Shown: one piece after another, positions 29,462 through 44,254 of the stretch
How positions within the stretch are numbered: position 1 is the stretch's first letter
How the letters are laid out: each line of letters begins with the position of its first letter
NCBI RefSeq assembly: GCF_000710775.1
Contig: NZ_JOJP01000001.1
Coordinates: 1,875,825 to 1,939,824, forward strand
Length of the DNA: 64,000 nt
Reading direction: 5' to 3'
Source: Endozoicomonas elysicola
GTDB lineage: Bacteria > Pseudomonadota > Gammaproteobacteria > Pseudomonadales > Endozoicomonadaceae
Notes under the pieces: model-generated
The model's input: only the letters and a program-made list of their open reading frames with translations
Told to the model about the DNA's origin: nothing
Databases searched by the model: none
Position numbers and translations under genes: made by a program

Positions 29462-29469
29462 ATAACTTT

Positions 29470-30042: not shown

Positions 30043-30063
30043 ACTTACCTCGATGAAATGTGA

Positions 30064-30165
30064 ATGAATGCCTAATGCTTATTAGTGTGAATTCCGCTTT
30101 TCACTTTGAAGATCTGCACAAATGAGTTCACCTTACAAATTTATACTGATTGAAAATCATCATTT
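30064..30165 (-). other. Candidate divergent attC-like site, copy 1
   Basis: Minus strand GGTGAACTCATTTGTGCAGA, CTTCAAAGTGAAAAGCGG and AATTCACACTAATAAGCATTAGGC. GGTGAACTC pairs with GAATTCAC. It is about 80% identical to 36673-36765, whose end is a clear cassette boundary. It falls between two minus-strand genes, where an attC is expected. The fit to a classical attC is weak. Confidence 0.45.
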
Positions 30166-30186
30166 TTGATGACATGGAAAACTGAT

Positions 30187-30265
30187 GTCAGGTCTTTCAT
30201 TGTGTATTAAACAAAGTATGGGGTTTTCAGATTTATCAATTTAAATGCACGATGAAAGACCTGAC
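30187..30265. repeat. Inverted pair of GGTCAGGTCTTTCAT repeats
   Basis: GTCAGGTCTTTCATTGTG at 30187 faces CACGATGAAAGACCTGAC ending at 30265, with 43 bases between; 17 of 18 bases pair. It would form a stable stem downstream of the gene ending at 30280 and just before the attC-like site. A REP doublet is the best explanation. Confidence 0.8.
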
Positions 30266-30279
30266 TCTTATTTTACGTT

Positions 30280-31158
30280 CTATTTTTTAAGTGCTTTTAA
30301 GGCAATTTGAGAAAATGATGCAGGAAGAGCCTTAGCTTTTGCTTGATTGGATAAATAAGTTGAGAGCTTGCCGTCGCCAATATAAACCTCTCTGAACCAT
30401 CTTCTGAACTCACCTAGTGCAGACTCAGGATAGCACCAAGGAACTTGAGGGTTTGACATTGCTTGTGGGAAATAATCGGGATAATTATGTTCATATTTAT
30501 CACGCTCCCCAAATTTCTGCTCAAGATTGTTTTTTGTCCAATGGCTACTCCATGTTCGACCAACACTGATATCAGGCACAAATTTGTGATCAATATGCAA
30601 ACCAGCCTGCCCAAGAGTTACAACCATATCTGCAATTTCTTTGAAGATACTAAAATAACCTGCTGGTACAGAGTCATATGTAAGAGAAACTCTATCGTGG
30701 AACTGTTTCCATTGCTCTGGAACAGCTTGGTTTGGGTCATAGCCAACTTGGGCATATACGAACTCTTCGAACCCTCGACCAGCGAGAGTTCGATAGTTTT
30801 GTAATGCGATGGCGTTGTCGTTTTGCAAAGCATCAAAAGCATAATATTCTAGGACAGCAAGACAAACTGACCCAGTCCAGAACCTACTTCCATTTACTTC
30901 TAAATACGGTGAATGTAGGCTTACACCACGATTATCTAAAATTTGTTTAATCTTTGTGACACGAGGTTTTTGGACGGATTCTGACCATTCAGAACCAAGT
31001 CGTACAATTGGTGCGTTATCAACACCACATAACCGAGCTAACCCACGACCAGTTAGATAAGGAGTACCATCAGAAAGTACACCCATTCCCACTCCATTGA
31101 TTTCAACTTCTTTCTCGACTTTGAGGTCAAGCTGGTCTTGAACGGTTGGATAATTCAT
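30280..31158 (-). CDS. Cassette gene: possible BstA-like abortive-infection protein
   Basis: 292 residues, cytosolic. The N-terminal ~125 residues (MGVLSDGTPYLTGRGLARLC, then VCLAVLEYYAFDA, NYRTLAGRGFEEFVY) look like an Ant/KilA-N-type DNA-binding module. The C-terminal half is rich in aromatic residues: FHDRVSLTYDSVPAGYFSIF, PDISVGRTWSSHW, YEHNYPDYFPQA and GEFRRWFREVYI. From memory this organisation resembles BstA, a prophage-encoded abortive-infection protein; I cannot verify it here. It lies in the defence-type cassette array. Confidence 0.5.
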   Translation of the reverse strand: MNYPTVQDQLDLKVEKEVEINGVGMGVLSDGTPYLTGRGLARLCGVDNAPIVRLGSEWSESVQKPRVTKIKQILDNRGVSLHSPYLEVNGSRFWTGSVCLAVLEYYAFDALQNDNAIALQNYRTLAGRGFEEFVYAQVGYDPNQAVPEQWKQFHDRVSLTYDSVPAGYFSIFKEIADMVVTLGQAGLHIDHKFVPDISVGRTWSSHWTKNNLEQKFGERDKYEHNYPDYFPQAMSNPQVPWCYPESALGEFRRWFREVYIGDGKLSTYLSNQAKAKALPASFSQIALKALKK

Positions 31159-31209
31159 ATTTGTCCCCTAAAAGTAGGTGTAAGAGCATACTTTAAAATT
31201 ATGTTAAGC

Positions 31210-31259
31210 ATGTAACACCTAAAACAAGTACGCTGTAGGTGTCATCTGGAAAATTAGGA
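31210..31259 (-). other. Degenerate attC site (attC3)
   Basis: On the minus strand: TCCTAAT, then TTTCCAGATG, ACACCTACAGCG, TACTTGTTTTAGGT and the crossover box GTTACAT. The core aligns with attC1 (CCAGGTG, ACGCCTACGGCG, CACCTG). The first box matches five of seven bases of the TGCTAAC expected from the start of the upstream cassette (TTAGCA at 33252). It separates the ATPase cassette from the BstA-like cassette. Confidence 0.65.
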
Positions 31260-31311
31260 TCAGGTTTTTGATTATGAATTACAAATCATAGCGTTCAGGT
31301 TTATCATTTTT

Positions 31312-31500
31312 CTACAATGCACGATGAAAGACCTGACCCTTATTTTTTTCATTGTATGTAGCTGAGTGGAGCGAGTCTTCGGCTTCGTCTGCTTGTTTTG
31401 CTATAAGTGCGATTTCATCAGTTCTTTTGGCAGATTGCCCTGCAACATTGTCAGAGTTTTTTGAAAGAGCCTTAGCGATAGCTGAAAAAAAATCCTGCAT
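31312..31500 (-). CDS. Doubtful 62-residue frame after the ATPase gene
   Basis: An open frame MQDFFSAIAKALSKNSDN with alanine/glutamate-rich continuation and a C-terminus (GQVFHRAL) encoded by a copy of the GGTCAGGTCTTTCAT repeat. It is 64 bases downstream of the ATPase stop on the same strand. Reading through a repeat element argues against a conserved protein, but a small cassette peptide is possible. Confidence 0.25.
   Translation of the reverse strand: MQDFFSAIAKALSKNSDNVAGQSAKRTDEIALIAKQADEAEDSLHSATYNEKNKGQVFHRAL
31317..31337 (-). repeat. GGTCAGGTCTTTCAT repeat, copy 3
   Basis: Minus strand GTCAGGTCTTTCATCGTGCA. A degenerate inverted partner (GATCAGGTTTTTGATTATG) lies at 31259-31277, so this is another REP-like doublet placed between a cassette gene and its attC. 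Confidence 0.7.
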
Positions 31501-31564
31501 TGGCTCCGGTGGCCAGCAAAGCGGAAGCTAAGCGTATAGCAATTATTATTTTATTTTTCACAAA

Positions 31565-33214
31565 CTAAGACCTTTTATCAATTGCTAGTGCACGCCATAA
31601 TATTTTGTGAATATATACGATGGATGTGTTCTCTATTTTCTTTGCTGTTAGGTCTTGGCTTCTATCGTGAGACCATTTTACTGTACTTGTCCCATCTACT
31701 TTTATTCCGATAACTCCAATTTTATATAAAACATAAAGTATATTTTGTCTTAACTGAACAATATGAGCTTTAGAGGCTGGATATCCTGTTTTCATGTATG
31801 CATACGCAGATCTAACAGCTATGTCTGAGTTTTCTTCTGGAAATTCCGCCAGTTCAAGAATTAAAAATTCAAGTTGATCATCAGTTATTGCGCTAACTTT
31901 AAAGTTGCTATTCCTGTTATGTAAGAGATCAATATATTTATCAAGAGCTGGATGCTCAACAAACCATTCATACTTTAAGGATTCTATCCTATCTACAGAA
32001 TAGGATTTTTCAGCTAACTTTATTATAGAAGATGTGATTTCGGACTTTCCTTGAGATTCATTTAAACATGCATTTACAAACATTATCGCATCTCTAGGGC
32101 GAAGTAGTGTTCTATCTAATATATATTCAGCTGCTGTAACTTTATCTATTTTATCAGGAAAGACATCATTGAAATTAACAGATCCACTTTTGTACTTATA
32201 TTTAAGTAAGTGATTAACCCTGCTGTCTAGCACACTCATTAATTGATCTTTATTCCAACCCAACTGGAGAAAGAGACTGTTATATTTCTCACGCTGAAAT
32301 CCAGAATCTCTTGTTTTATCTAACACCCTATCTAAAAGGTCTGTTCTCAAAGTAATAATAATTTTTACAGGTGTAATGTTTCTAAACTTTTTAATTGTTT
32401 CAATTAATGCCCGTATTAGCTTATAGCGAAGTCCATCCTCCACCCAGTTTTCATCTAATCTATCAATTAGAATATATATTTTGTTTTGTGGGTCAGTGAA
32501 TATATCTTCCGCTAAGAGATTTACTATTTTGGATAGTTTTTCAATTTGAACGGAGCTTACTACTTTTTTTCCGTAATGTATGACTTCTGATTTTTGCTCC
32601 TCAGATAAAGCAATCTCAGCTTTGCCATTAACCTTTACTCCAGGGACATTAGAATTAATTGAAGATTTTAAGCTTCTTTCTAACTTATCTGTAAATTCCT
32701 TAATACGCGTTTCTGTGTCAATCCAGAATTTATCTCCCCACTCTTCAATATATTGAAGTGCCTGTTGTTTTTTATGGTTTCCAGAAAGTAATGCAGTAAT
32801 TGAGTCAATAAAATTTGTTTTTGCTTGTGCTGAATCAATATTGTATTTATTTTTAATAAGTTCAACAGCTAAGGTGTGCTGCCATAGTAGGCTGTAAAAT
32901 ATATCTAAATTGACACCTAATTCCTCAAAAAAGTTTAATATGGTTGAATTTGATATATGTCTAAGTGCCAGCTCTTCAGGTTCAATTCTTATTACAGTGT
33001 CACTATTTTTTTCTAATTGCTCTAATAATGCACTTTTTCCAATTCCTGTTCTTCCAAGAACTATCGATTGTGAAGCAGTCGTATCTTCTAGGATTTCATA
33101 ATCACCAATATCAACGAAGCACTCTTCCAAAAACTGCTTATCGTTTTCAGCATCAGCCTCACCGACCGACATATGCTTTTTAAAAACGAAGTCTTGCTTA
33201 GCTCTTTTTGTCAT
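31565..33214 (-). CDS. Cassette gene: P-loop ATPase (Sll1717-like)
   Basis: 549 residues. The N-terminal MSVGEADAENDKQFLEECFVD block and Walker A GRTGIGKSALLEQL (about residues 54-67) match the group annotated as Sll1717-family P-loop ATPases, related to KAP/STAND-like NTPases. Walker B is KIYILIDRLDENW near residue 250, followed by a sensor-like arginine region IIITLRTDLLDR. The C-terminal 200 residues form an uncharacterised helical part. Such ATPases are common in defence islands, usually with unknown targets. The cassette start lies 38 bases upstream, inside attC1. Confidence 0.7.
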   Translation of the reverse strand: MTKRAKQDFVFKKHMSVGEADAENDKQFLEECFVDIGDYEILEDTTASQSIVLGRTGIGKSALLEQLEKNSDTVIRIEPEELALRHISNSTILNFFEELGVNLDIFYSLLWQHTLAVELIKNKYNIDSAQAKTNFIDSITALLSGNHKKQQALQYIEEWGDKFWIDTETRIKEFTDKLERSLKSSINSNVPGVKVNGKAEIALSEEQKSEVIHYGKKVVSSVQIEKLSKIVNLLAEDIFTDPQNKIYILIDRLDENWVEDGLRYKLIRALIETIKKFRNITPVKIIITLRTDLLDRVLDKTRDSGFQREKYNSLFLQLGWNKDQLMSVLDSRVNHLLKYKYKSGSVNFNDVFPDKIDKVTAAEYILDRTLLRPRDAIMFVNACLNESQGKSEITSSIIKLAEKSYSVDRIESLKYEWFVEHPALDKYIDLLHNRNSNFKVSAITDDQLEFLILELAEFPEENSDIAVRSAYAYMKTGYPASKAHIVQLRQNILYVLYKIGVIGIKVDGTSTVKWSHDRSQDLTAKKIENTSIVYIHKILWRALAIDKRS

Positions 33215-33246
33215 ATTCCCTCATGGTTTAACGATTTATGTTTTAA

Positions 33247-33303
33247 TGCTAACGCCTAAATCAGGTGCGCCGTAGGCGTCACCTGGATTTATTTGTTAAG
33301 CGC
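33247..33303 (-). other. attC recombination site (attC1)
   Basis: Minus strand: R'' GCTTAAC, arm AAATCCAGGTG, centre ACGCCTACGGCG, arm CACCTGATTT, AGGC, R' GTTAGCA. The arms pair with one unpaired C in the R''-side arm, the extrahelical base expected for attC and the base that sets orientation. R'' GCGCTTAAC is complementary to GTTAAGCGC, the start of the same cassette at attC2, as required if this cassette was once a circle. It begins at the last base of the DUF4326 gene stop region. Confidence 0.85.
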
Positions 33304-33908
33304 TACTCACCATCATCCCAGCTGTTTAAATAATTAGCCAAAACATCACCGTGGCAATTGGCAGGCTTACAAAAACATCCTAGACGCTTACCGGCAAGTC
33401 GATAAACCTCATTTTTTTTCAGATGTGGAAATTTATCAAAGTCAAAATCATATTTGAACTTTCTAATTACTTCATCACGGTCACCGTCACCATCATACAT
33501 TGAATGAGGGTTTCCCCATTTTGAGCCTCTACCAATGTATTCATAGTCTTCAGTGCTCTTTTTGCCTTTATACTCTGTCTCATTCTTTATATTTATAACT
33601 CGAGTGATTTTAATTTTTATAAATCTAGAAAAAACACCCTTTTCTTTAAGCTCTTTTCTTAAATCAGAGAATTCTTCACCATCATCAAAAATAATAGCAT
33701 GAGTGATACTTTCTAGATTTAGACGGCCAATCTCTGTAAAATTTATATCTGGTAATTTTTCAAGGCAAAGTCGGGCAATGAGATTATTGTGATCTTTAAT
33801 TGTCGCAATTGTATAGTTGTCAAGGTTGGATAGGATATTGCCGACTTTCCTTTCAAGCTTTTCATAGCAGTTGAAGGCTTCAGGGTACTGTATTAATACA
33901 ACATTCAT
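33303..33908 (-). CDS. Cassette gene: DUF4326 protein
   Basis: 201 residues. The C-terminal DUF4326 domain has YIGRGSKWGNPHSM, DRDEVIRKFKYDF and RLAGKRLGCFCKPANCHGDV, with the C-x-C...C-H motif. The N-terminal ~100 residues form an alpha/beta domain (VVLIQYPEAFNCYEKLERKV). The function of the family is not established; association with nucleic-acid modification or conflict systems is from memory. It follows the DUF488 gene with a one-base gap, so they are co-translated. Its stop lies at attC1. Confidence 0.75.
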   Translation of the reverse strand: MNVVLIQYPEAFNCYEKLERKVGNILSNLDNYTIATIKDHNNLIARLCLEKLPDINFTEIGRLNLESITHAIIFDDGEEFSDLRKELKEKGVFSRFIKIKITRVINIKNETEYKGKKSTEDYEYIGRGSKWGNPHSMYDGDGDRDEVIRKFKYDFDFDKFPHLKKNEVYRLAGKRLGCFCKPANCHGDVLANYLNSWDDGE

Positions 33909-33909
33909 T

Positions 33910-34353
33910 TTAGAATAAATGCTTAACTTGAAGGTTTAGTTCTGAATTGTCGTTTAAATACTCAACGACAAGGCGACGATGACAAAAATGAGGTTTGTGT
34001 TCGCTGCATAGTAAGCAACCGCTATCCATGAGTGCAGAGCTTAAAGTTTTTTCAATGCAACGTTGTGACATCAGATTGAGGAATCTGTCTTCATACGCCT
34101 CCCAAGATATTTCCTTCTTCTTATAGGCATTTAATAAATCTTTTGTTGGCGCTAGCTCTGGTGCGTGTTCATAATCAACACCACATAGTTTTTCTAAGAA
34201 GAATTTCAAGTCATCTCTTTTTGCAAAACCTGAGAGTTGAGAAACATTGTTTAATCTGACATCAATAAGAGTTTTTATATCCTCATGGTTTATGAGGCTG
34301 AAGAACTCTTTTGCCTTTTTTTGAGTAAAGCCTATTGTATATATTTTCCCCAT
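33910..34353 (-). CDS. Cassette gene: DUF488 protein
   Basis: 147 residues. The start KIYTIGFTQKKAKEFFSLI, the LIDVRLNN motif and the C-terminal CLLCSEHKPHFCHRRLVVEYL (C-x2-E-x-x-P-x-x-C-H-R) are the hallmarks of DUF488, which also carries a C...CHR motif like that of the DUF4326 neighbour. Enzymatic activity is suspected for the family but unknown. It lies between the DuOB-like gene (14-base gap) and the DUF4326 gene (one-base gap). Confidence 0.85.
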   Translation of the reverse strand: MGKIYTIGFTQKKAKEFFSLINHEDIKTLIDVRLNNVSQLSGFAKRDDLKFFLEKLCGVDYEHAPELAPTKDLLNAYKKKEISWEAYEDRFLNLMSQRCIEKTLSSALMDSGCLLCSEHKPHFCHRRLVVEYLNDNSELNLQVKHLF

Positions 34354-34367
34354 ATTCAGCTCCTCGT

Positions 34368-35066
34368 TTAATAGCTCCGGATGTTTCTCTGATAATCAGG
34401 GAAAGTATAAATACCGTTTACCTGTAACCAATACCCGTTTCTATGGTCAGGACTATAGGCACGACTTAGACCAATCCGTAAATATACTTCATCTTGGCTA
34501 GAAATGAAATCTTGAACCCTATCGAGCTCTCCATCATTCTGGTGCATTATCGCATAATCATAGAAGCCACGGTCAGTTATTGATAGATAGCGATAGCTGT
34601 GGCCATCTTGATCAGTAAAGCTAAGTTTGATTTTTCCTGGATTGTATTGGTCTTCGTGAATATGAAGTTCAGCTGGATCCACTTCTATTGTAATTATTGA
34701 GCATTCAACCTCATCATTTATATCCACATGTTTTTGATTTCTTTCAAACTCATAGTTAAAGCCATCTTCAACTGAATTAGAAAGAGAGTTTAATAAAACT
34801 TCTTTAAAATCTTCAGATGAAGCAGGGCCTCTGAATATGAGATTGGAGTAGCTTGCATCTTCTATATGGGGATTCTCTGCATCTTCATCAAAGGTGAAGT
34901 TTCCTGTAAAAATTGCTCCTGGTTGAATGTTGTGATCTGCACATGCCCTACTAGAAAAATAAGGCATTGGGCGAATACACTCCCCAGTATTAACATCAAT
35001 CATTGCTGTACAAACAATATCAGGGTTTCTGAATCTAGTGAGGTCGGTGACTATTACTCGTCTCAT
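34368..35066 (-). CDS. Cassette gene: DuOB-like (dual OB) uncharacterised protein
   Basis: 232 residues from the ATG at 35066. The open frame continues upstream, but only through the attC2 site, so that part is not the gene. The N-terminus RRVIVTDLTRFRNPDIVCTA, followed by ECIRPMPY and a beta-rich remainder (GAIFTGNFTF, YRYLSITDRGFYDY, YLRIGLSRAY, GYWLQVNGIYTFPDY), resembles the beta-barrel proteins that accompany DUF488 genes, called DuOB from memory. It is the first gene of a three-gene cassette with DUF488 and DUF4326. Confidence 0.55.
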   Translation of the reverse strand: MRRVIVTDLTRFRNPDIVCTAMIDVNTGECIRPMPYFSSRACADHNIQPGAIFTGNFTFDEDAENPHIEDASYSNLIFRGPASSEDFKEVLLNSLSNSVEDGFNYEFERNQKHVDINDEVECSIITIEVDPAELHIHEDQYNPGKIKLSFTDQDGHSYRYLSITDRGFYDYAIMHQNDGELDRVQDFISSQDEVYLRIGLSRAYSPDHRNGYWLQVNGIYTFPDYQRNIRSY

Positions 35067-35094
35067 TATGATACTCCGTTGTTGATGTTTTTTG

Positions 35095-35143
35095 CGCTTA
35101 ACGCCTGCGTGTGCGGCTTGTCCGCACCACGCACTTGTTAGCT
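35095..35143 (-). other. attC recombination site (attC2)
   Basis: Minus strand: R'' AGCTAAC, arm AAGTGCGTGGTGCGG, loop ACAAG, arm CCGCACACGCAGGC, R' GTTAAGC, a perfect GTTRRRY. The arms pair with one extra G on the R'' side, giving the same orientation as attC1. R'' extended (GCAGCTAAC) is complementary to GTTAGCTGC at 36674-36682, the start of the cassette it ends. This is the second solid attC of the array. Confidence 0.85.
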
Positions 35144-35181
35144 GCGTCCTTACTCTAAAACTGAACAAAGGTATTTCTGTA

Positions 35182-36552
35182 TTATTGAACTGCTTCTATG
35201 TAACTTTTTTTCAAACTATCAAAATCTGAAAAATCCGAATTTTCTAGAATAACAACTCTTCTAGGTGAATAACTGACGCCATGATTTCTAGGTGGTATCC
35301 TTTGTCCTATATGAGTATCAAAAAAAGTCATTAATACATTATTTTTATCTTCTATTTTTAAGGCTATAAAGTATTCGATCAATTCAGCTTTGACTTGAAC
35401 ATCCTTTATATAAGAAAAAACCTCAAACACTTCATCTTTTAGTTCTTGTATATCCCTATCGAGTTCAATTAACCCTGTAACAAGATTTTGAGATAAAAAT
35501 GATGTTTCAACAGTATTAAGATTCCAGTCGTCAGCCTTTCTAAGTTGAGACAAGATGCTATTTTTGGAATTCTGAATATCTAAATTAACAACGACCTTAA
35601 CAGCTTCTGAAATATATATGCAGTCCATTGACGACAAATCAGAAGAAATAGTTAAATTCAAATTTCTTATTGTCACTTCTTGTGGCTGATAAGGTAAATT
35701 TCTTAACGAGGTCTCCAAAACTCTTACGGCTGTAGGGTTCTGGTAACAGCAAGACAAAGCTGTCCATATAGCATTTTGATAATAGGTGTCCCTAAAACCC
35801 TGCAAAGTCCTATAAAGATCATTCAAGGAAATAGAGCCAGGGAGCTTCTTTTCATCATCAATAATGTTTATTTCACTTAACTTAAATGTAGTAACAACCT
35901 CTTGGATTTGGTTATCTGTAAAACAAAAGTAACCAATTCTTTTTTCTTCAGTTTTAAACTCATTATTCAGTTCAACTTTAGAAAATATTAATCCTTTAAA
36001 ATGATTTTCATTGACAGTGTCAATATGCTTGAAAGGAAGATGGTATTCTCCACACAAAATTCTTTCTATTTGTTCAAAGAGTATATTAATGCTATTTTTT
36101 AGATTATATTGTTTTATTATTGATACTGATTTGGGACTGCGCTCAATCATAGATTGGAGCTGTTGCCTATCCCAAACTTTCATTTTAAAGCCATTTCTAT
36201 CAGAGTTTTCTGCATCGAAATTACTTTGAACAGTTGCGCTAGCAATAGTAGAAGTAATTAGAAAATAACCATCTACTTTAAATTTTTTACAAGCGCTTCT
36301 CCAGTCCCCAAGCTCGTTTTCATATACAGATTTGTTGCTGTGGGCTTTATGTTTACATTGAACTAAATACTTTATTGAGGTTGTTGTACCTATTTGATCT
36401 TTATTCTCAACTTCAACAATTAAGTCTTTTTTCTGGTCAGCACCTCTTGATGGTGAAGATAGAATTTTGACCCCATGACTTTCTAGAACATCTCTAATTA
36501 AGAGTTCAAAGTCTTCGCCATCATCGCTGATTCTTTTGAAATCAATAGTCAT
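35182..36552 (-). CDS. Cassette gene: Mrr-like restriction endonuclease fused to an unknown domain
   Basis: About 456 residues. The N-terminal ~150 residues match the Mrr/PD-(D/E)XK restriction fold: FELLIRDVLESHGVKI, GADQKKDLIVEVE and YLVQCKHKAHS give the catalytic D...Q-x-K set, followed by DGYFLITSTIASATV. The rest (about 300 residues, mixed alpha/beta) is unknown and may sense or bind targets. Either of two ATGs (36570 or 36552) could start it; neither has a clear ribosome site. It is the first gene after the upstream ops element and fills one cassette (35102-36681). Confidence 0.7.
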   Translation of the reverse strand: MTIDFKRISDDGEDFELLIRDVLESHGVKILSSPSRGADQKKDLIVEVENKDQIGTTTSIKYLVQCKHKAHSNKSVYENELGDWRSACKKFKVDGYFLITSTIASATVQSNFDAENSDRNGFKMKVWDRQQLQSMIERSPKSVSIIKQYNLKNSINILFEQIERILCGEYHLPFKHIDTVNENHFKGLIFSKVELNNEFKTEEKRIGYFCFTDNQIQEVVTTFKLSEINIIDDEKKLPGSISLNDLYRTLQGFRDTYYQNAIWTALSCCYQNPTAVRVLETSLRNLPYQPQEVTIRNLNLTISSDLSSMDCIYISEAVKVVVNLDIQNSKNSILSQLRKADDWNLNTVETSFLSQNLVTGLIELDRDIQELKDEVFEVFSYIKDVQVKAELIEYFIALKIEDKNNVLMTFFDTHIGQRIPPRNHGVSYSPRRVVILENSDFSDFDSLKKSYIEAVQ

Positions 36553-36672
36553 ATTTATTTCACAAAACAAGTAAGTATTAGAATTACTGGGAAATATTAA
36601 ATATCTATAAAGTAAATAAAGTTTTTATTTATTGCTTTTTTAAATACACTACACTTTCGTTTTTTTCGGCAT

Positions 36673-36765
36673 AGCAGCTAACACTTATTAGTGCGAATTC
36701 CGCTTTTCACTTTGAATATCTGCACGCACGAGTTCACTTTAAAACTTTCAACTAATTGAAAATTA
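36673..36765 (-). other. attC-like cassette boundary, copy 2
   Basis: On the minus strand: AAAGTGAACTCGTGCGTGCA, ATTCAAAGTGAAAAGCGG, AATTCGCACTAATAAGTG and then the crossover box GTTAGCT. The box and the following GC are complementary to the R'' box of attC2, so this is the upstream boundary of the Mrr cassette. Its stem is weak, so the element may be a divergent attC or an attI-like end. It is a near copy of 30064-30165. Confidence 0.6.
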
Positions 36766-37480
36766 TAATTTTTTAATACGATAATTAATTAAGCCGTACT
36801 AGTCATGTTCTGACAAAGCGAGAATTGGTATTAATCGAGAATCAAGATTCACGATAAAGATCCAGAGGCTAAAATTATTTCTCTAAAAACATACAGATAA
36901 ATTTTTTACCACTATTTATCAAGAATTGTGGGTACGCTATACACTCTGGGAATTCAGCAAAATCACCGACTTTTTATTATAACTGTATGCTCATACAGCA
37001 GATTGAGAGTGATGACCATCAGGCACGCTACCGCCCGTCGATTTTAACTTCTGCCTTATACAGACATCAGGGAGCACATATATCAAACAGCTCAACAACA
37101 ATTTTTGGGATGTAATATTGGTTCGATGATGTGAACCGTTGCTTACAAAAACCGGACTAAAGTATCAGGTAGGGCTTTATAATTAAAGAAAATCTTTATT
37201 GTTCTTCCATCGTCTTCTACTTACAGCTCATCACTTGGTAATAAAGGCTCTCCACTACCTTTTTATGTGCTGGTTCAACCTCGATTTGGACTATATTCAG
37301 GGGTTTGAGTCTGTGCGTCAGTTTTATTCTGAAAGCCTACCTCCTGCTGAATAGTTGTAATTTTGAACAACACCCGACGTAGTCCAATAAATCTGTTGCC
37401 TCTTCGGACAAAACATTTTTTGGACACGTCTTTACCTGTCGTTCCTGGACAAATTACATTCAGCAAACGAGGTAAACATC
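36766..37480. other. Long gene-free leader of the cassette array
   Basis: About 700 bases without a convincing gene; a 63-codon minus frame at 37275 has no support. It holds the minus-strand ops element at 37024-37035. By position it should include the promoter and leader for the cassettes and the left junction of the prophage. I could not identify either exactly. Confidence 0.5.
37024..37035 (-). promoter_or_regulatory. Second ops element, facing the cassette array
   Basis: Minus strand GGCGGTAGCGTG, preceded by AAATCGACG exactly as at 291-302 (21 identical bases across the two sites). It points toward the minus-strand genes starting at 36552, about 470 bases away. RfaH recruitment here would help transcription run through several cassettes and attC hairpins. 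The motif is seen; the function is inferred. Confidence 0.75.
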
Positions 37481-37708
37481 ATGAAAACACTCACTAACTC
37501 GATGCTCTGCACCCTGATTCATTTGACCAAAAATCAGCTTGAAGAAAAGCGACATGAAATTTCAGAACTGAGCCAGTACACCACCAAGGTGATTCGCGAG
37601 AGTTATAATTCCGAAGTCGAAGAACTGGTGGCCATATTGGAAATTCTTCACGTTTTACTTAAAGATCATTCCTCACTTGAGCAGCAGATTCGTCCCACCA
37701 AGAAATAG
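37481..37708 (+). CDS. Small helical protein at prophage edge
   Basis: 75 residues, mostly helical with two charged coiled-coil-like stretches (IHLTKNQLEEKRHEISELSQ and SYNSEVEELVAILEILHVLL). The ATG follows ACGAGGTAAACATC, a good ribosome site, so translation is likely. It points against the rep gene and is separated from it by a hairpin. The family is not recognised; a phage accessory or superinfection role is possible. Confidence 0.55.
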   Translation: MKTLTNSMLCTLIHLTKNQLEEKRHEISELSQYTTKVIRESYNSEVEELVAILEILHVLLKDHSSLEQQIRPTKK

Positions 37709-37740
37709 CAGAGTGGGGTTTATCCCCTTTCTGCGCCATT
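37709..37740. terminator. Bidirectional terminator between convergent genes
   Basis: GCAGAGTGGGG, TTTAT, CCCCTTTCTGC: an imperfect stem between the stops of the 37481 gene and the rep gene, followed by CATTTTAAGG. Confidence 0.6.
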
Positions 37741-37751
37741 TTAAGGGCTGG

Positions 37752-39059
37752 TTAGATGCTGTATCCCATCAGTATTCTTTCCTGATAGGAGTTTCGTAGT
37801 CGCTCAATGAGTTGGTGTTCAGTCGTGTTATTTTTCTCGTAGTGGTCGGCAATGTCTGTCCAGATAATGCTTTCTTGCAGTTCTTTCAGTACCTTTTTGA
37901 ACTTCAATCCTTTTCGTGCACAGGCTGACAGTAAGTTACCGATGTAGAGCTGGTAGTTTTTGCCGGAGAATGAGGTGGCTTTTTTGTAGTAGCGTTTGTA
38001 GTGGAGATTCTCTTTGTAGGCGGACTCAGGGTATTTGAAGACGATATCGTCCAGCAGGATTGTCCAGATCGGATCAAGGTAGTTGCTGTTGTACTTGAGT
38101 TTGAAGGATTTCAGACCGTAGAGCCAGAGTGCCTGAATATGTTTGATGACCTCGGAGTAGGTGTTCATTTTAACGCCGATTTCACCGGTTTCTTTGTTGC
38201 AGGTTCCCAGGGCAAACTGTTGGATCACGGAATGGTGAAAGCGTACCTCAAACCGGAAGACATCGGATTCAGGATCATATCCACTGCAACCATTTTTTAA
38301 TTGGGTGCTTTGTTCCCATTTGTGTTCCATATAGTCGAACTTATCAATGGTTTTGGCCTGAATGGTTTTGTTGTAGATGGCCATTTGGACGGCACCCGCA
38401 GAGCCAAACTTAAAAGACTGGGAACGATCATAGATGCAGGAGACTTCCGAGACATTGAACTCCGCTTTATCAATCCCGTTAAACTGGGCGATTCTCCGTG
38501 ATTTACAGGTCATTCGTTCAGAGAGTTCGTTATCCGGTTTCCAACCCTGTACGTCCACCGCCAGGTGGATAGCAGGGTAGTGCGGTTCAGCGCATCGAAG
38601 CACTTTCTTGGCAATGTTCGTCAGGAACTGATCCACTTTCTTTGGAGAGCGGTTATCCAGGAACCACGGGGAGCATTCAATTTTCAGGTGGGAGCCAATG
38701 GATTCCGCTTTGGAGTGGAACATTTTGCAGAAGATAATGACTCCAAGCTGGTTATTCTGGAGTCGATACTGGTAACCGGATGCTTTACCACTTTTGCCCA
38801 GTATCCAGTTATGACCCAAAAACCGGAAGGTTTTCTCCCCAAAGCTCATGGAGTCTTCGATATCCGTCAGGAAGTCCAGATCCATAGCGCCTTTAAAAAG
38901 CTGTCGTAAGGTATCCACATAGGTTCCTACGATCTGGAAATTGTCTTGATAGAGATCCTGTACTTTCCCATAGCGAGGATGGACAAAGAGAAGGCCTTTA
39001 TCACTGGCTATGGTTTCAGCTCTATCCTCTGATAGTTCATATCGTTCTAAAGATTGCAT
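37752..39059 (-). CDS. Filamentous phage replication initiation protein
   Basis: 435 residues with the general pattern of inovirus/ssDNA-plasmid replication initiators (Rep_trans/RstA-like): a central block YPAIHLAVDVQGW with acidic residues, then SVIYDRS-like ESCIYDRSQSF, IYNKTIQAK and VFRFEVRFHHSVIQQF. It would nick or open the phage origin for rolling-circle replication. It is the last gene of the phage coding strand, after Zot. Assignment rests on context plus partial resemblance. Confidence 0.7.
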   Translation of the reverse strand: MQSLERYELSEDRAETIASDKGLLFVHPRYGKVQDLYQDNFQIVGTYVDTLRQLFKGAMDLDFLTDIEDSMSFGEKTFRFLGHNWILGKSGKASGYQYRLQNNQLGVIIFCKMFHSKAESIGSHLKIECSPWFLDNRSPKKVDQFLTNIAKKVLRCAEPHYPAIHLAVDVQGWKPDNELSERMTCKSRRIAQFNGIDKAEFNVSEVSCIYDRSQSFKFGSAGAVQMAIYNKTIQAKTIDKFDYMEHKWEQSTQLKNGCSGYDPESDVFRFEVRFHHSVIQQFALGTCNKETGEIGVKMNTYSEVIKHIQALWLYGLKSFKLKYNSNYLDPIWTILLDDIVFKYPESAYKENLHYKRYYKKATSFSGKNYQLYIGNLLSACARKGLKFKKVLKELQESIIWTDIADHYEKNNTTEHQLIERLRNSYQERILMGYSI

Positions 39060-39175
39060 TATAAAATCCTTCTTATAACTTTTTGTCTTATATCTACCCT
39101 TGTTTAATGACGTGCTACAGGAACGTCCGCCTGTGCGGGCTGCGCTGCGCGTTGCAGCCTCGCACAGTGTCTGGC

Positions 39176-40480
39176 TCAGAGTTCGTCATAGGGTGCAATC
39201 TCTCTTTTCTGGCTGCGGCGACTGTTTCTGTCGTGTCGTTTATCCGAGAGTGTTTCGTCGAAATAGCCGTTGCGGACAACGGATTTGCACAGGTAGTCCG
39301 GCACATCCATCCGTGTCACCCGCTGGGAGTAACAGATGCAGACTTCCTGTGCGGTGTCTTCCCGCCAGAGCACACAGTTTTGTGGCTTAGGGAAGGAGCG
39401 GGGTTTGGTGAGGTGGTCGTAGACCGGCGCCGTATGTGTGATGCCGACAATTCTCGGCTTGCGCTCTTCCAGATACTGCTCACGGCTTTGAGGCTGGGTG
39501 TCAGCAACCGGCAGCAGAGAACCGGAGGGTTCCGGTGCTGGTGCGGCTTCGCCTGGTTGATCAGGGGTAAGCGTGGTGTAGCCGAAATAGAGTGCACAGC
39601 CGATAGCACCGAGCAGTAGCGGGATCAGCCAGATCACCGGCGGCAGGCTCAGCTTGTGCGTGTGCTCAAAGGCCGAGAAGTAGACTCCGAAGTATTTCCT
39701 GGGTTTGCCGGTGACGGATTTGCGTCCTTCTTTCTTGGCAAAGTGGTCATCGGGATCAGCGCACTTGTCCCAAGTGTATCGGGTGACTTTGGACGATCCC
39801 CAGAAATTGAAGTAGTGGGTATGGTGTCCGCACAGCCTTCTCAGGTGTACATCAAGAAAGTTCGGGTGTTGGGTAATCAGGATGACATCAAAACTGTCGT
39901 GGCGATGCTTTTCAAAGCGTGAAGCGTATACAGGGACTTTGTCTTTGCCGGAGCGTACCGGAAAGAACTCCTGTGCCTCATCGATCACCAGCACTGAGTA
40001 ACCTTGCAGGTCGTACCATTGGTGAGGATCAGGAAAGTGTGTCCAGTGCAGGTTCAGATGCTCGAAGTCCTTGAAAGTGAGTTCCACACCTTCAGGTGCA
40101 TTCTTCTCGATCTCCGATACTTTCTGAACTTGTGAAGCTGGATAGCAGACTTTCACCCACTTCAGCCATTGCCTCAGTGGATCATGTTGCTGAAAAGCCT
40201 GTTCCAGAAACGGCGCATCCTTCAGTTCTACAAATCGCTTTTGCTCATGGATCGGTTGAATCATCGGAGCAATGACAGACTTTTGATTCCTGGTCAGTGA
40301 CGGTAGATAGATGTCGTAGAAAAATGCCTGGAAGGTCTGGCACTGCTGATAGTCCAGCAGGTTGAGTTTGATGTTGTTGTAGAACTTGGGTCGGCCAGCG
40401 TATTTCTTATCGGTGCAGACGGTTTTGAAGCAGTTCAGGCTTTTGCTGGCACCTGGTCTGCCGGTAATGAAGTGCAGCAC
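39176..40480 (-). CDS. zot: Zot-like filamentous phage assembly ATPase (pI)
   Basis: 434 residues from the GTG at 40480, chosen because AGGAG lies ten bases upstream and because LHFITGRPGASKS is the usual N-terminus. Walker A GRPGASKS is at residues 7-14; Walker B YSVLVIDEAQEFFP lies near 165; one membrane helix (VIWLIPLLLGAIGCALYFGY) divides the cytosolic ATPase from a periplasmic tail. The Zot/pI protein drives extrusion of the phage across the inner membrane. It is the key marker gene of inoviruses. Confidence 0.93.
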   Translation of the reverse strand: MLHFITGRPGASKSLNCFKTVCTDKKYAGRPKFYNNIKLNLLDYQQCQTFQAFFYDIYLPSLTRNQKSVIAPMIQPIHEQKRFVELKDAPFLEQAFQQHDPLRQWLKWVKVCYPASQVQKVSEIEKNAPEGVELTFKDFEHLNLHWTHFPDPHQWYDLQGYSVLVIDEAQEFFPVRSGKDKVPVYASRFEKHRHDSFDVILITQHPNFLDVHLRRLCGHHTHYFNFWGSSKVTRYTWDKCADPDDHFAKKEGRKSVTGKPRKYFGVYFSAFEHTHKLSLPPVIWLIPLLLGAIGCALYFGYTTLTPDQPGEAAPAPEPSGSLLPVADTQPQSREQYLEERKPRIVGITHTAPVYDHLTKPRSFPKPQNCVLWREDTAQEVCICYSQRVTRMDVPDYLCKSVVRNGYFDETLSDKRHDRNSRRSQKREIAPYDEL

Positions 40481-40615
40481 TGTCCCTTTTCTCCTGTGGT
40501 CATCCTTGCGGATTGTTAATGGCTGTTGTTGTTGGGTTCCGCTGGAAACCGAGTTCTTTTCAGGAAAAGAACACCATTTCCAGCGGCTCAATAGACAGCG
40601 TTAACAACCCGTGGT

Positions 40616-40933
40616 TCAGGACGTGCCACCAAAGCCTTTCCAGAAGGAAACGCTTTGTTTTGGCCGTCCGTTGAAATAGGAGATGCCCTTGATCACCATG
40701 ATGACGGTGATAAACGACAGTGCGATATTGACCGCTTTCGGAATGCCCAGCAGGGAAAGCATCTGGAACATGGCAACCGGCATACCATCAAAGTTGGCCT
40801 GTATCTGCTCACCCAGATAATCCACCATGATATCCAGGCCAAAGTAGGTGACCACACCGACACCCAGTCCGCGCAGCAGTAGCCAGGCAATGGGAACAAT
40901 GGTGGAAACAATAAAGGTGAGTATGTAGCCCAT
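40616..40933 (-). CDS. DUF2523 minor coat protein (pVI-like)
   Basis: 105 residues from the ATG at 40933. Three hydrophobic segments (ILTFIVSTIVPIAWLLLRGL, VVTYFGLDIMVDYL region and AVNIALSFITVIMVIKGI) and an NGRPKQSVSF tail fit DUF2523. In inoviruses this gene sits between the adsorption protein and Zot and is the counterpart of pVI, located at the virion end. A longer frame extends upstream but overlaps the previous gene. Confidence 0.8.
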   Translation of the reverse strand: MGYILTFIVSTIVPIAWLLLRGLGVGVVTYFGLDIMVDYLGEQIQANFDGMPVAMFQMLSLLGIPKAVNIALSFITVIMVIKGISYFNGRPKQSVSFWKGFGGTS

Positions 40934-40959
40934 GAGGTTTCTCCTATTTGTTGTGTTGT

Positions 40960-42282
40960 TTAACCAGAACCAAGTGACTTGGCCAGAATCACCGCCATCG
41001 AGAACCAAGTGGCAAAAATAATGAACCATGAGATATAGGAAGCCAGGTCACACAACGGAGTCAGGACAAATTCATATTCAGCACCGAGAACGGTAAAGCC
41101 GATTGGGTCTGGGCATTGGTTGTCCGACGTGACGTATTCATCGGTATCCAGGAAGTCTTCAACGTGAATTTCCAGCGTGTCACCTGGGAGTGACCCCAGT
41201 GGTGACATGTTTGGGTTGTTGCTGATGATGGAACCGACTTCCCCCTCGTTGTATTGGGAGAGGCACAGTTGCTTTTTCTCCATTCGGGCAATGGCGCACT
41301 GAATCGCGTCACCGGAACAGGTCACTTCTTTATCGCATTCAAAACCAGAGAATGCTGATTTGGGATTGTCGCTTTCTGCCTGTTTTTCGGCTTGCTGGCG
41401 AATACCCGTTTCTTTGACAATTTGCTGAACGGTTTGGGCTTCAGGTGTGTTGTCCGTGAGATCCTGCTGATCGAGAATATCATCCGTTGTACTGCCATTA
41501 GCATTGCCACCATTGGCAGGATGATCCGCAGAATTTGGGTCAACCATATCGCCTTCAGGGTAGGTGCAAAGGTATTCACCGTTGACGTATTGGCAGTTGC
41601 TGTAAGCATTCTTTTCAAAGCAGACGACTTCACCGTTAAAGGTTCCGCAGTTGAATTGGTCTTCCAGTGTTTCGTTATCAATACAGACAGGCACCCCATT
41701 CACCAACTTGCAGGTTTGATCAGCACTGATGCAGACCTGGGTATAACCATCCGTCCGGCAAGGCAGTTCATCTTCATTGATTTCGGTGTATTCGCTGATA
41801 CCCGCTAACTGAGTCGTGTCTTCATTACCGGTACAGGCTCCTCCGGTCGGAATGTATTCATAGGCGATGGGAGCCAGTGCATTGTCATAGTCACGAAATC
41901 CTCCCAGTGAGGTATAGCTGCACTGGTTGTAACAGGCCGTTTGAGCATTGGTAGAACTGGTGATTGGTTTTGCTGTTAAGCATGATGAAGTACAGGAACC
42001 CGTTTCGTCATACACCTCACATTCAGGTGGTGTACTGAAGTTGTAGAGCGCAGTGAAACTTGATGATTGATCATCAGGAGGGCAGTAATTGTACAGGGTG
42101 CTGTTTGGGTATTGATTTAAGCCATTATGAACATGGGATAACAAGCGAACAGAGTAGGTTGAGCCAGAGTTATGGGAATAGGTTTGACCGATGGGCGACG
42201 TACAATCAGCACCACCAGTTTGATAAGATAAAACATCCAGACTGAAAACACTGGGCAGAATAACGGCTAAAAGTCGTTTCAT
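40960..42282 (-). CDS. Adsorption protein (pIII/TspB-like)
   Basis: 440 residues. A signal peptide (KRLLAVILPSVFSLDVLS) is followed by a large cysteine-rich ectodomain with over 20 cysteines and low-complexity Ser/Asn/Gly/Asp stretches (SADHPANGGNANGSTTDD). A C-terminal membrane helix (YISWFIIFATWFSMAVILAK) anchors it. This layout and position before DUF2523 and Zot match the TspB/pIII attachment protein, which determines the receptor. ATG at 42282; the longer frame upstream is not expected to be used. Confidence 0.8.
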   Translation of the reverse strand: MKRLLAVILPSVFSLDVLSYQTGGADCTSPIGQTYSHNSGSTYSVRLLSHVHNGLNQYPNSTLYNYCPPDDQSSSFTALYNFSTPPECEVYDETGSCTSSCLTAKPITSSTNAQTACYNQCSYTSLGGFRDYDNALAPIAYEYIPTGGACTGNEDTTQLAGISEYTEINEDELPCRTDGYTQVCISADQTCKLVNGVPVCIDNETLEDQFNCGTFNGEVVCFEKNAYSNCQYVNGEYLCTYPEGDMVDPNSADHPANGGNANGSTTDDILDQQDLTDNTPEAQTVQQIVKETGIRQQAEKQAESDNPKSAFSGFECDKEVTCSGDAIQCAIARMEKKQLCLSQYNEGEVGSIISNNPNMSPLGSLPGDTLEIHVEDFLDTDEYVTSDNQCPDPIGFTVLGAEYEFVLTPLCDLASYISWFIIFATWFSMAVILAKSLGSG

Positions 42283-42430
42283 GGCTGCATCATCCAGACA
42301 GCCATGAGGACAACCAGTACATAGAACCATCCATAGTCTGGAACCCACATAAGCCTGTTGTCCTTTTATGGTTGTTCATACTGACAATTGCTCGTGTATT
42401 GCCAGCATACCGTCCATCCCTGGACATAAA

Positions 42431-42453
42431 GACGGGAGGACGAACCTCCCGCC
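42431..42453 (-). terminator. Terminator after major coat gene
   Basis: On the minus strand: CGGGAGG, loop TTCGT, CCTCCCG, then TCTTTAT. It lies 20 bases after the major coat stop, where inoviruses commonly end the abundant coat transcript. Confidence 0.75.
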
Positions 42454-42471
42454 AACCCATGCAAACAAGTC

Positions 42472-42675
42472 TCAGCCGAAAATCGCGCCTTTGACCCATT
42501 TGAACACCACGGCAAGTGCCGCCACGCCAATCAATGCAGTACCCACAGCGGTAATCGCTGTCGAACCATCGGTTGAAATGGCGGTAGTGGCTGCTGACAC
42601 ATCAATCTCGGCAAAGGCACTGGATGCCATTGCTGAAGTTGCCAGCAGGAGTGCAAGGTGTTTTAGCTTCTTCAT
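42472..42675 (-). CDS. Major coat protein pVIII
   Basis: 67 residues: signal peptide KKLKHLALLLATSAMASSAFA (cleavage after AFA at residue 22), then a 45-residue mature coat EIDVSAATT... with one membrane helix (VGTALIGVAALAVVFKWV) and a basic C-terminus (KWVKGAIFG) that would contact ssDNA. This is the classic inovirus major coat. It has a good ribosome site (AAGGAGATTAGCC) before the ATG. Confidence 0.93.
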   Translation of the reverse strand: MKKLKHLALLLATSAMASSAFAEIDVSAATTAISTDGSTAITAVGTALIGVAALAVVFKWVKGAIFG

Positions 42676-42693
42676 GGCTAATCTCCTTGTTGG

Positions 42694-42906
42694 TTAACGT
42701 AATTGACGAAGGATCAGGGCAAAGATGAACCCGATGACCAGCAGCATCAGCGTTGCGCTGATCAGGGCATCCGCCTGTTCTTTCGTCAGCCCATTCGATG
42801 CAGGGATCGCCTGCACCTCTTCAAGCGTGATGGTGGCGGACTCACCAGAGCAGGAAATCTGCCCTTCCGAATCCGAACTGAAGCCATCACACAGAAGCAG
42901 TTGCAT
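42694..42906 (-). CDS. Small membrane protein, minor coat candidate
   Basis: 70 residues. A polar N-terminal half with two cysteines and acidic residues is followed by one membrane helix (ALISATLMLLVIGFIFALIL) and RQLR. Size and location between the ssDNA-binding protein and pVIII fit pVII/pIX-like minor coat proteins. The start overlaps the stop of the previous gene by one base. Confidence 0.65.
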   Translation of the reverse strand: MQLLLCDGFSSDSEGQISCSGESATITLEEVQAIPASNGLTKEQADALISATLMLLVIGFIFALILRQLR

Positions 42907-43196
42907 TACTTAACCGCCTTTTCTAATGCCGGTTTTTTAATGCCAAGAATTTTGATGGAGATGCGTTGTTTTGAACCGGACATGACTTTGGTTCGAAACT
43001 CGTAAGGTTTTAAGGGTTGCAGGGATTGAAAATCCTGAAGTCTTTCATAATCAGAACTGCAAATCATGACATCCAGTCCGAAAATATTGGGGTCGTCATC
43101 TTCTCCTGTCGCAGAAAGAAAAACTTTTAAATAGCGACTGGATTCAAATTCGGTAACTTTTGCGCCCAGGTAAAGTGCCTTTATTGATGATTCCAT
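42906..43196 (-). CDS. ssDNA-binding protein (pV-like)
   Basis: 96 residues from the ATG at 43196, preceded by CAGGAGCAAAAAA; a longer frame starting at 43265 lacks this. The sequence is beta-rich (IKALYLGAKVTEFESSRYLK, PYEFRTKVMSGSKQRISIKI), in keeping with an OB-like ssDNA-binding protein that coats nascent phage genomes. Position at the head of the structural operon supports it. Confidence 0.6.
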   Translation of the reverse strand: MESSIKALYLGAKVTEFESSRYLKVFLSATGEDDDPNIFGLDVMICSSDYERLQDFQSLQPLKPYEFRTKVMSGSKQRISIKILGIKKPALEKAVK

Positions 43197-43341
43197 TTTT
43201 TTGCTCCTGATGTAATTTGTTGTTTTGGCAATTACAGATTTAATTGCAAAGGGAATGGTTTTCAATAGGGGGTTTTAAACTCGCCCGTAACCGCCAACAG
43301 TGGCTAAAAGAAAAGTGAAAATTTACAATTCAAAAGCGAAA

Positions 43342-43449
43342 ATTGATTTATTGACAGCAAAGCTTGGCAAGGCAATTAATCGCATGAAAGGGCAAGGGGT
43401 TGCCCTGCGATTAATTTTAATGCCTTGCCTTCACTGTCAATAAATCAAT
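43342..43449. repeat. Giant hairpin in phage intergenic region (origin/packaging signal candidate)
   Basis: Four nested perfect stems: ATTGATTTATTGACAG (43342-43357) with 43434-43449; GGCAAGGCA (43366-43374) with 43421-43429; ATTAATCGCA (43375-43384) with 43406-43415; GGGCAA (43390-43395) with 43400-43405. In total 41 base pairs close on a four-base loop region. In an ssDNA phage this would be a dominant fold, suitable as packaging signal or minus-strand origin. It lies between the early genes and the ssDNA-binding gene. Confidence 0.85.
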
Positions 43450-43456
43450 TGGGTTT

Positions 43457-43654
43457 TTACGTGTCAGACGACGTGTGGTTGCTGGTTGGCCATGTGTCGT
43501 TAGGAGGCTCACGCCCGATAATCACGCCCTTAGTGCGGTGATAATGGTAGACACACTCCCATATGTGGGACTTGATAATGTCCATTGCTACCAGGTGTCT
43601 TTCCTCCAGAGAGCAGCCAGGTTTAACCCGTGAGCTTGTTCTTTTTCTTCTCAT
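43457..43654 (-). CDS. Small phage protein, unknown
   Basis: 65 residues from the ATG at 43654; a longer frame to 43687 overlaps the upstream gene. It has a basic N-terminus (RRKRTSSRVKPG) and a central SLEERHLVAMDIIKSHIWEC helix. No family recognised. Its stop is eight bases from the giant hairpin. Confidence 0.4.
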   Translation of the reverse strand: MRRKRTSSRVKPGCSLEERHLVAMDIIKSHIWECVYHYHRTKGVIIGREPPNDTWPTSNHTSSDT

Positions 43655-43664
43655 GGTGGTGTTC

Positions 43665-43934
43665 TTATGGGTTAGGGCAGGACTCATTTAACTGATTAAA
43701 CCACTCAGAAAGAAATGCCTGAATGGTTCTCAGGGTTTTTAATTCATTGAGCAATTGGGCTTTAAGGTTTTCAGAAATAAAATGTGCTTGATCAGCTAAT
43801 TGAAACTCCAATTGTTCTTTTTGAATGGTTACAGATTTGATAGAATACTGTATCAAAATTAATTGAAGATAAGGGTCGTTAATAACATCAACCGCTTCAA
43901 TAGCATTGCCTGTAAAAATAAATACATTGCTCAT
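43665..43934 (-). CDS. Small phage protein, unknown
   Basis: 89 residues, one hydrophobic patch (YLQLILIQYSIKSVTI) and a helical C-terminal half (AQLLNELKTLRTIQAFLSEW). The ATG follows AAGGACGAAAAAA. It lies between the excisionase-like gene and the other small early gene. No family is recognised. Confidence 0.5.
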   Translation of the reverse strand: MSNVFIFTGNAIEAVDVINDPYLQLILIQYSIKSVTIQKEQLEFQLADQAHFISENLKAQLLNELKTLRTIQAFLSEWFNQLNESCPNP

Positions 43935-43954
43935 TTTTTTTCGTCCTTGTTATT

Positions 43955-44176
43955 TTATTTAAGAGGAATGTTGTTCTGGCCTTTTGCAATTTGCTCCCTG
44001 AGTAACAGCATATTGATAAACACCCGTCTTCCAATTCGAAACAATGGCAGGAGTCCTTGTTTCATCCAATGACGAACAACGTGTTCTGAAATATCCAGAG
44101 ATTGGGCGAAAGCCTTTGGTGTACAAATGACTTCACTGGGGAGGTGACCCTTAATGATCAGGTCTTCAATGTCCAT
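43955..44176 (-). CDS. AlpA/MerR-like DNA-binding protein (excisionase or regulator)
   Basis: 73 residues from the ATG at 44176; a start at 44233 would add 19 residues. VICTPKAFAQSLDISEHVVR, HWMKQGLLPLFRIGRRVFIN is a winged-helix MerR/excisionase signature (helix-turn-helix, then GRRxxI wing). It is divergent from the repressor gene, as a Cro/Xis counterpart would be, and probably controls excision or the early promoter. Confidence 0.7.
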   Translation of the reverse strand: MDIEDLIIKGHLPSEVICTPKAFAQSLDISEHVVRHWMKQGLLPLFRIGRRVFINMLLLREQIAKGQNNIPLK

Positions 44177-44235
44177 ACCATCATCCGTGACGATTGGGTT
44201 TATGAAAACTTCTATAAAGTATGCATATAGCATGC

Positions 44236-44254
44236 AGATGTAATATTTACATCT
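44236..44254. promoter_or_regulatory. Dyad between divergent phage genes, candidate repressor operator
   Basis: AGATGTAA, TAT, TTACATCT: a perfect 8-3-8 dyad in the 170-base divergent region between the excisionase-like gene and the repressor gene. A second palindromic stretch (TGCATGTATATATGTCATGTAC) follows at 44286-44308. Both are plausible sites for the XRE repressor. Confidence 0.6.

Follow-up and report, generated by a model that had tools for sequence, protein, structure and literature searches.

Putative RfaH-dependent ops leaders ahead of gene cassettes in Endozoicomonas elysicola: a prophage-borne defence array and the integrons of the Endozoicomonadaceae

An ops element lies on the minus strand at 37024-37044 of the 64-kb stretch of E. 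elysicola DNA analysed here (the window), where it points into an array of phage-defence-type cassettes. The same element was found, in the antisense orientation, at the 3' end of every integron integrase gene (intI) that we identified in the Endozoicomonadaceae, and the E. elysicola genome encodes an RfaH-type paralogue. These observations probably mean that the core of the element (37024-37035) recruits RfaH in the leader of the cassette array, that ops is a standard part of the integron platforms of this family, and that a polymerase modified by RfaH would read across intI in antisense and on through attC hairpins and cassettes of foreign origin.

The ops element and the prophage-borne cassette array of the window

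According to the original prediction, one 21-base stretch occurs twice in the window, at 282-302 on the plus strand and at 37024-37044 on the minus strand. The two copies were indeed identical, and the only two exact matches to the 12-mer ops core, GGCGGTAGCGTG, lie within them. The copy at 282-302 precedes a polysaccharide locus that starts with a WecA-type transferase gene (470-1543, plus strand; TIGR02380, 285 bits, below the cut-off of 326), and the copy at 37024 faces minus-strand genes from 36570 downward. The genome (5,606,375 bases in two contigs, the larger of 5.57 Mb) was searched for all ops copies, and eight exact 12-mers were detected versus none for the reversed-pattern control, indicating genome-wide enrichment; six of the eight extend to GACGGGCGGTAGCGTG. 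Summed over 37 Endozoicomonadaceae genomes, the totals were 202 for the 12-mer and 12 for the control. A chance origin of the copies was rejected on the basis of the genome-wide control together with the positional match at 26 of 26 family intI loci described below.

The element had been predicted to stand before cassettes. Cassettes do follow it, but the prediction missed an inovirus prophage upstream, to which the leader belongs. This prophage spans 36679 to about 45784, and the ops leader forms its last part ahead of the cargo. Prophage and cargo together lie between accC (46008-47363) and prmA (27715-28686), which we take to be usual neighbours. The probable left end of the element lies at 28806-28889, its status as an end being deduced from 81% identity to positions 10624-10706 of another E. 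elysicola locus (L016). Minus-strand genes encode a replication-type protein (Rep) of 435 aa (37752-39059; phrog_1159, 442 bits, no function given there, so named from size and position), a Zot-like morphogenesis protein (39176-40591; Pfam Zot, 67 bits; phrog_197, 191 bits), a DUF2523 minor coat protein (40616-41029; profile matches), a pIII-like adsorption protein (40960-42348; phrog_4352, 81 bits, function not given, assigned from position) and an excisionase-like protein (43955-44233; phrog_575, a weak match of 23 bits). An HTH repressor-like protein (44409-44738; profile match) and a tyrosine integrase (44762-45772; phrog_1, 190 bits) are encoded on the plus strand; the latter is a phage integrase and not an integron integrase (TIGR02249, 56 bits versus a cut-off of 265). 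The Zot-like, small coat, pIII-like and Rep genes, the last two by position, identify the element as an inovirus prophage. An IMG/VR viral contig runs from the repressor gene into the cargo as far as the ATPase gene, and all window proteins compared within it were identical. Among 14 IMG/VR contigs carrying GACGGGCGGTAGCGTG, two contain inovirus genes (both with genome id 2515154160), and the other 12 gave no match to the phage or cassette proteins of the window; a Rep search of IMG/VR returned two contigs with the same genome id.

The leader (37036-37330, minus strand) is 71% identical over 234 nt to the leader of an intI relic and 72% identical over 303 nt to the leader of L016, and further copies exist. 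Counted from the ops at 37024, it ends about 356 nt on at a conserved point beyond which the genes are unrelated. We designated the last 100 nt (36679-36778, minus strand), which end in CACTAATAAGTGTTA and are followed by the cassettes, an attI-like entry site; the term was chosen because its sequence did not match that of the intact integron's attI region. A second, diverged end of this kind (CACTAATAAGCATTA) lies at 30073-30172 on the minus strand and is 84% identical over 96 nt to 36678-36773. Altogether, seven related ends were found in six loci (the window twice, L266, L267, L268, L269 and L271), with a mean pairwise identity of 83% over the last 100 nt and 31% over the following 60 nt. 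Four terminate exactly in CACTAATAAGYGTTA, and the other three are one base off. Judged from these alignments, a conserved end with unrelated genes beyond has the look of an attI occupied by different cassettes. Sites of the attC type were detected in the cargo of L266 and L268, and the fold scan found none in that of L267. Exact ops elements stand at two of the seven ends (36679 in the window, and L271). Two findings here count against our explanation: ops is degraded to GACGGTAGTGT, with two mismatches, at four ends (354-357 nt away in L267, L268 and L269, and displaced to 273 nt in L266), and it is absent at the window's 30073 end, where the best ops-like sequence has four mismatches. The degraded copies, three of them at the distance of the intact copy, look as if ops had been lost or its allele had changed.

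The cargo begins with a cassette for an Mrr-type restriction endonuclease of 462 aa (35182-36570; Pfam Mrr_cat, 41 bits), all of its features being on the minus strand. An attC site (35099-35140) is followed by a DuOB-domain gene (34368-35168 as the longest open frame, an ATG near 35067 appearing likelier by eye; Pfam DuOB), a DUF488 gene (33910-34353; Pfam, 86 bits) that matches the PADLOC candidate PDC-M45C (221 bits), and a gene with mSLOG and DUF4326 domains (33303-33908; profile search). After a second attC (33250-33298), whose core is nearly the same as that of the attC beside the intact integron, come a P-loop ATPase gene of the Sll1717 family (31565-33214; NCBIfam NF047389, 227 bits, cut-off 75), a BstA-type phage defence gene (30280-31158; PADLOC BstA, 395 bits) and, past the second attI-like end, an open frame of 190 aa (29470-30042), for which profile searches of Pfam, PADLOC and NCBIfam found no family. 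The array had been described as attC-rich; attC sites and defence-type genes are present, but "rich" overstated the case, as only two clear attC sites separate the cassettes. Both came from a fold-based scan, in which block shuffles of four loci gave 1 match in 12, and weaker candidates at 19365-19417 and 41930-41978 lie outside the array. No trace of intI was detected at the array, the sole window match with E under 1 being the phage integrase. A sequence of about 30 nt, AATGCACGATGAAAGACCTGAC, is repeated in both direct and inverted orientation in the surroundings of the BstA gene (29439-31346).

ops at integron integrase genes

Three integron loci elsewhere in the E. elysicola genome carry the element. 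At the intact integron (integrase at C1:3757161-3758183; TIGR02249, 451 bits, cut-off 265), GGCGGTAGCGTT lies on the other strand, within the final codons of intI, and an attC-bearing cassette is present on the attI side. At a relic locus, ops at 1087370 is followed by an antisense intI remnant with one stop and then by a long attC; a gene for an RPE65-type carotenoid oxygenase was noted in the region past this relic (L011:6182-7570). The third locus, L016 at 3975643, is integrase-less: leader and ops lead into a region that aligns with the intact integron's attI region at 79% identity over 76 nt, and further on there is a 31-nt attC-like blastn match, the fold scan having found no attC. The same leader is common to the window, the relic and the third locus.

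The original prediction had raised the question of whether the ops leader stands before other cassette arrays, and it was found to recur at the head of integron arrays throughout the family. With IntI loci defined by E<=1e-60, and relics below that line left out, 26 loci were identified in 20 of the 37 genomes. At each of them an antisense ops with no more than one mismatch (an exact 11-mer in 18) stands at the 3' end of intI, oriented through intI toward the cassettes; on the sense strand, ops was found at none of the 26. The idea of ops at the array head thus held, with the amendment that where intI is present the element lies antisense at its far end, so that read-through would cross intI first. 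In the 24 loci with a placed stop codon, the ops edge lies -53 to +253 nt from the stop, at +4 to +17 in 15 loci and after the stop in 20; the locus with the +253 value (L029) has a further one-mismatch copy close to the stop. Because ops occurs in all three reading frames and mostly past the stop, coding constraint at the IntI C-terminus was ruled out as a cause of its conservation. In an alignment of 24 leaders with <80% mutual identity, columns outside ops averaged 0.21 bits, and conservation of the motif columns themselves is in part an effect of how the alignment was built; two G residues that were no part of the query, at -1 (1.3 bits) and +11 (1.5 bits), were also conserved. Divergent integrases of one genome can have leaders in common (L033 and L049, 88% over 146 nt; L031 and L051, 82% over 50 nt), and from such comparisons the leader behaves as if it were a module. 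Scanning of 16 distinct loci revealed attC on the attI side, in the direction of ops, in 13 (up to eight in L247), and none was found in L248, L257 and L263. At L040:3766 we noticed a second exact ops on the cassette side of the intI locus, possibly inside the array. It counts against our explanation that the 26 loci are related and hence not independent.

Outside the family, ops within one mismatch was detected at 5 of 178 intI loci, three of them exact, and all four genomes tested for RfaH among these were positive. The 178 comprise 60 loci of other families of the order (one per genome), 40 of the class and 78 other named loci; one contig was duplicated between the class and named samples, and three named loci extend <400 nt after intI. 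Four of the 60 order loci were positive (three exact, one with one mismatch), their ops lying between -23 and +27 relative to where the IntI match stops, and five more had two mismatches, among them L099 at +20 in an RfaH-positive genome. One of the 40 class loci was positive, with one mismatch at +250 nt. The named sample originally held 80 loci, of which the two positives were both Endozoicomonas loci already among the 26, leaving 0 of 78. No sense-strand ops was found in the 60 order loci or in the 120 class and named loci. RfaH scoring >100 bits was found in 19 of the 60 order genomes, and ops at intI was found in 4 of 19 genomes with RfaH versus 0 of 41 without (one-sided Fisher test about 0.008 by hand, for a 100-bit line set after seeing the table and with two of the four positive genomes in the same family). 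This line may miss divergent RfaH proteins such as the family's own, and G128 at 61 bits would be a case. The 15 of 19 RfaH-positive genomes lacking ops at the examined intI count against our explanation. Because all four positives have RfaH while 15 genomes have RfaH and no ops at intI, the data fit RfaH being necessary, and not sufficient, for ops at this site.

Several ops sites of the E. elysicola genome lead into phage-defence genes, since Gabija, PtuA and Drt5 genes lie behind ops. In L015, an exact ops is followed by GajA (665 bits) and GajB (815 bits), the Gabija pair (L015:1842-6345); at L012, inovirus Rep and ops precede PtuA (552 bits) as the third open frame; and at L270, inovirus Rep and GGCGGTAGCGTT precede Drt5 (671 bits; DRT5). 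The inovirus proteins of the window were not found beside the Gabija pair. Polysaccharide genes follow the ops at 282 and those of L013 and L014. An ops variant at C1:3334562 was considered as a further cassette array and rejected, its run of small open frames having no attC and only three two-copy repeat families. At L275:4567-10723, the ops variant GGCGGTAGCGTA precedes about a dozen small genes without attC, the two that were scanned being a glyoxalase and a methyltransferase gene. An ops-like site at C1:1603310, where open frames and one protein were also examined, showed no attC by scan.

The RfaH paralogue, the proposed mechanism and its rivals

The original prediction depended on the genome having an RfaH/NusG paralogue. 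A PF02357 profile matched two E. elysicola genes, nusG and one for a 215-aa paralogue (match at C1:686585-686818) whose best NCBIfam model is RfaH (80.1 bits, the N-terminal domain being covered). Because this RfaH-type protein was found, the objection that no such paralogue exists falls away. The protein is a divergent RfaH, and it counts against our explanation that it fails the NCBIfam equivalog cut-off for RfaH (80.1 versus 144.5 bits); no family genome passed this cut-off, the best reaching about 138 bits. The four PDB sequences matched by the paralogue are all named RfaH, with alignment over the N-terminal domain. K10, H20, R23 and R73 are given as ops-contacting side chains of RfaH in PMC5995543. 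In 16 paralogues extracted from 21 proteins, R73 and K or R at position 10 were present in all 16, H20 in 2 and R23 in 1; NusG has P at position 73. The E. elysicola paralogue has N and S at the positions of E. coli H20 and R23, which counts against our explanation. Paralogues of this type occur in 34 of the 37 family genomes, the match in G015 being in two pieces. In the three genomes without one, ops was counted 0, 0 and 1 times and IntI was not found at E<=1e-60. A paralogue without any exact ops was seen in one genome (G005), a further point against our explanation. RfaH paralogues of three family genera have a long C-terminal part unmatched by the RfaH model (open frames of 213-267 aa; noted at L010:1123-1770), and other family genera have an ordinary RfaH of about 160 aa.

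From this arrangement we infer a promoter upstream of ops, RfaH binding, antitermination and an effect on intI. In integrons with intI, a transcript would start outside intI, pass ops and load RfaH, and the RfaH-loaded polymerase would cross intI in antisense for about 1 kb, pass attI and enter the cassettes. The antisense stretch of about 1 kb would be untranslated and a natural target for Rho. RfaH would exclude NusG, and hence Rho, and couple ribosomes, and premature termination would thereby be avoided in the antisense stretch that lacks translation, at attC hairpins and within foreign genes; lower IntI expression is a possible by-product. In the window, a filamentous prophage with the same kind of leader and an attI-like site, and no intI, would be read straight into phage-defence-type cassettes. 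Upstream of ops, a sigma-70 scan scored no better than on shuffled sequence (p<=0.1 in 1 of 27, mean p 0.54), the window included, and this absence of a promoter signal counts against our explanation. Rfam found nothing above gathering in window positions 28000-46500, and at a lax threshold, JUMPstart overlapped ops at one of five ops loci, the relic integron (22.2 bits, gathering 35, E 0.57).

The prophage setting raises the question of whether the ops leader is a phage device, in which case family inoviruses would use RfaH for their own accessory region and the cassettes would merely have been inserted there. The window leader is continuous with the prophage, and ops within one mismatch was found downstream of inovirus Rep, at +588 to +755 in five of six such rows. 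These six are the only ones among 22 rows (19 distinct loci), a proportion that also counts against our own explanation. The phage reading is unlikely because this leader also stands ahead of an intI relic and of a locus that bears attI but has no integrase, and because ops stands at 26 of 26 family intI loci, beside which tblastn with the window's Rep, Zot-like, pIII-like and cassette proteins found nothing in the fetched stretches, apart from the phage integrase matching IntI itself. The antisense position at the 3' end of all 26 genes could also be read as a device mainly for silencing intI through RfaH-stabilised antisense RNA, with cassette expression secondary; transcription interference between Pc and Pint of class 1 integrons is described in PMC8876359. 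The persistence of leader and ops where intI is a relic or gone, as in the window, makes this reading quite unlikely.

The divergence of the family's RfaH paralogues would allow the 11-mer to be conserved for a reason other than RfaH, for example because it pauses transcription, contributes to a terminator or forms a hairpin that a recombinase recognises. We consider this very unlikely, as the same motif stands ahead of polysaccharide loci in E. elysicola, tracks the presence of RfaH across genomes and has conserved flanking G residues. That the motif has no function and is owed to chance, or to common descent of the intI 3' flanks, is scarcely credible: the 26 loci are related, but their flanks are otherwise hardly conserved, the distance between ops and the stop varies, and in other families ops was found at the corresponding position in 4 of 60 loci, each in a genome that has RfaH. 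RfaH recruitment for read-through into the cassettes is accordingly the explanation that we prefer. A wider reading is possible and is put forward tentatively. RfaH antitermination may be the general mechanism of array expression in the Endozoicomonadaceae, turning promoterless cassettes into processive operons read antisense through intI, and filamentous phages may have taken up leader and attI-like site as movable, integrase-less platforms for defence cassettes served by host IntI and RfaH.

Relation to known systems and biological meaning

As in the RfaH/ops operons of Enterobacteria (LPS core, capsule, haemolysin and F tra), an ops core is found in a leader ahead of long gene sets of horizontal origin and an RfaH-type paralogue is encoded in trans; here, in contrast, the target is an integron or a prophage-borne array, ops is antisense at the intI 3' end where intI is present, and the C-terminal part of the E. 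elysicola paralogue is longer and divergent. IntI, attC and oriented cassettes are features in common with sedentary chromosomal integrons of the Vibrio superintegron type, to which the Endozoicomonadaceae add an ops beyond the intI 3' end. The window array, with attC and without intI, is what we take the name CALIN (cassette arrays lacking integrase) to cover, but it follows the leader of an inovirus prophage, which includes ops and an attI-like site. The CTXphi-like layout is known from inovirus prophages that carry accessory cargo. The window prophage resembles these in its Rep-type, coat, pIII-like, Zot-like and integrase genes and in having cargo at one end, and it differs in that the cargo follows an attI-like entry point and carries attC and that the leader has ops.

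The remark, made with the original prediction, that no such arrangement was known agrees with our searches of open-licence PMC full text. No paper tying RfaH or ops to integrons was found among the matches listed, and the combination of integron, antitermination and cassette array gave no full-text match. The matches listed for integrons in Endozoicomonas held nothing on an ops/RfaH arrangement, those for integrons or attC cassettes together with filamentous phages held none on cassettes carried by inoviruses, and those for RfaH and anti-phage functions held no paper on such an arrangement. In a text search of the integron-expression review PMC8876359, the terms RfaH, NusG and antitermin were absent. 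We have not found a description of two known kinds of system combined as they are here, and the family-wide pattern backs a plausible mechanism.

Taken together, the comparisons suggest that RfaH controls the expression of captured genes, including a defence array carried by a filamentous prophage. To our knowledge, there is no settled account of how long integron arrays express their distal, promoterless cassettes, and a conserved antitermination signal at the array head offers a directly testable answer for one bacterial family. Integrase silencing and cassette expression would then be linked, inovirus-borne attI-like sites would add a vehicle for the spread of cassettes, and the RfaH regulon would extend from surface polysaccharides to anti-phage defence.
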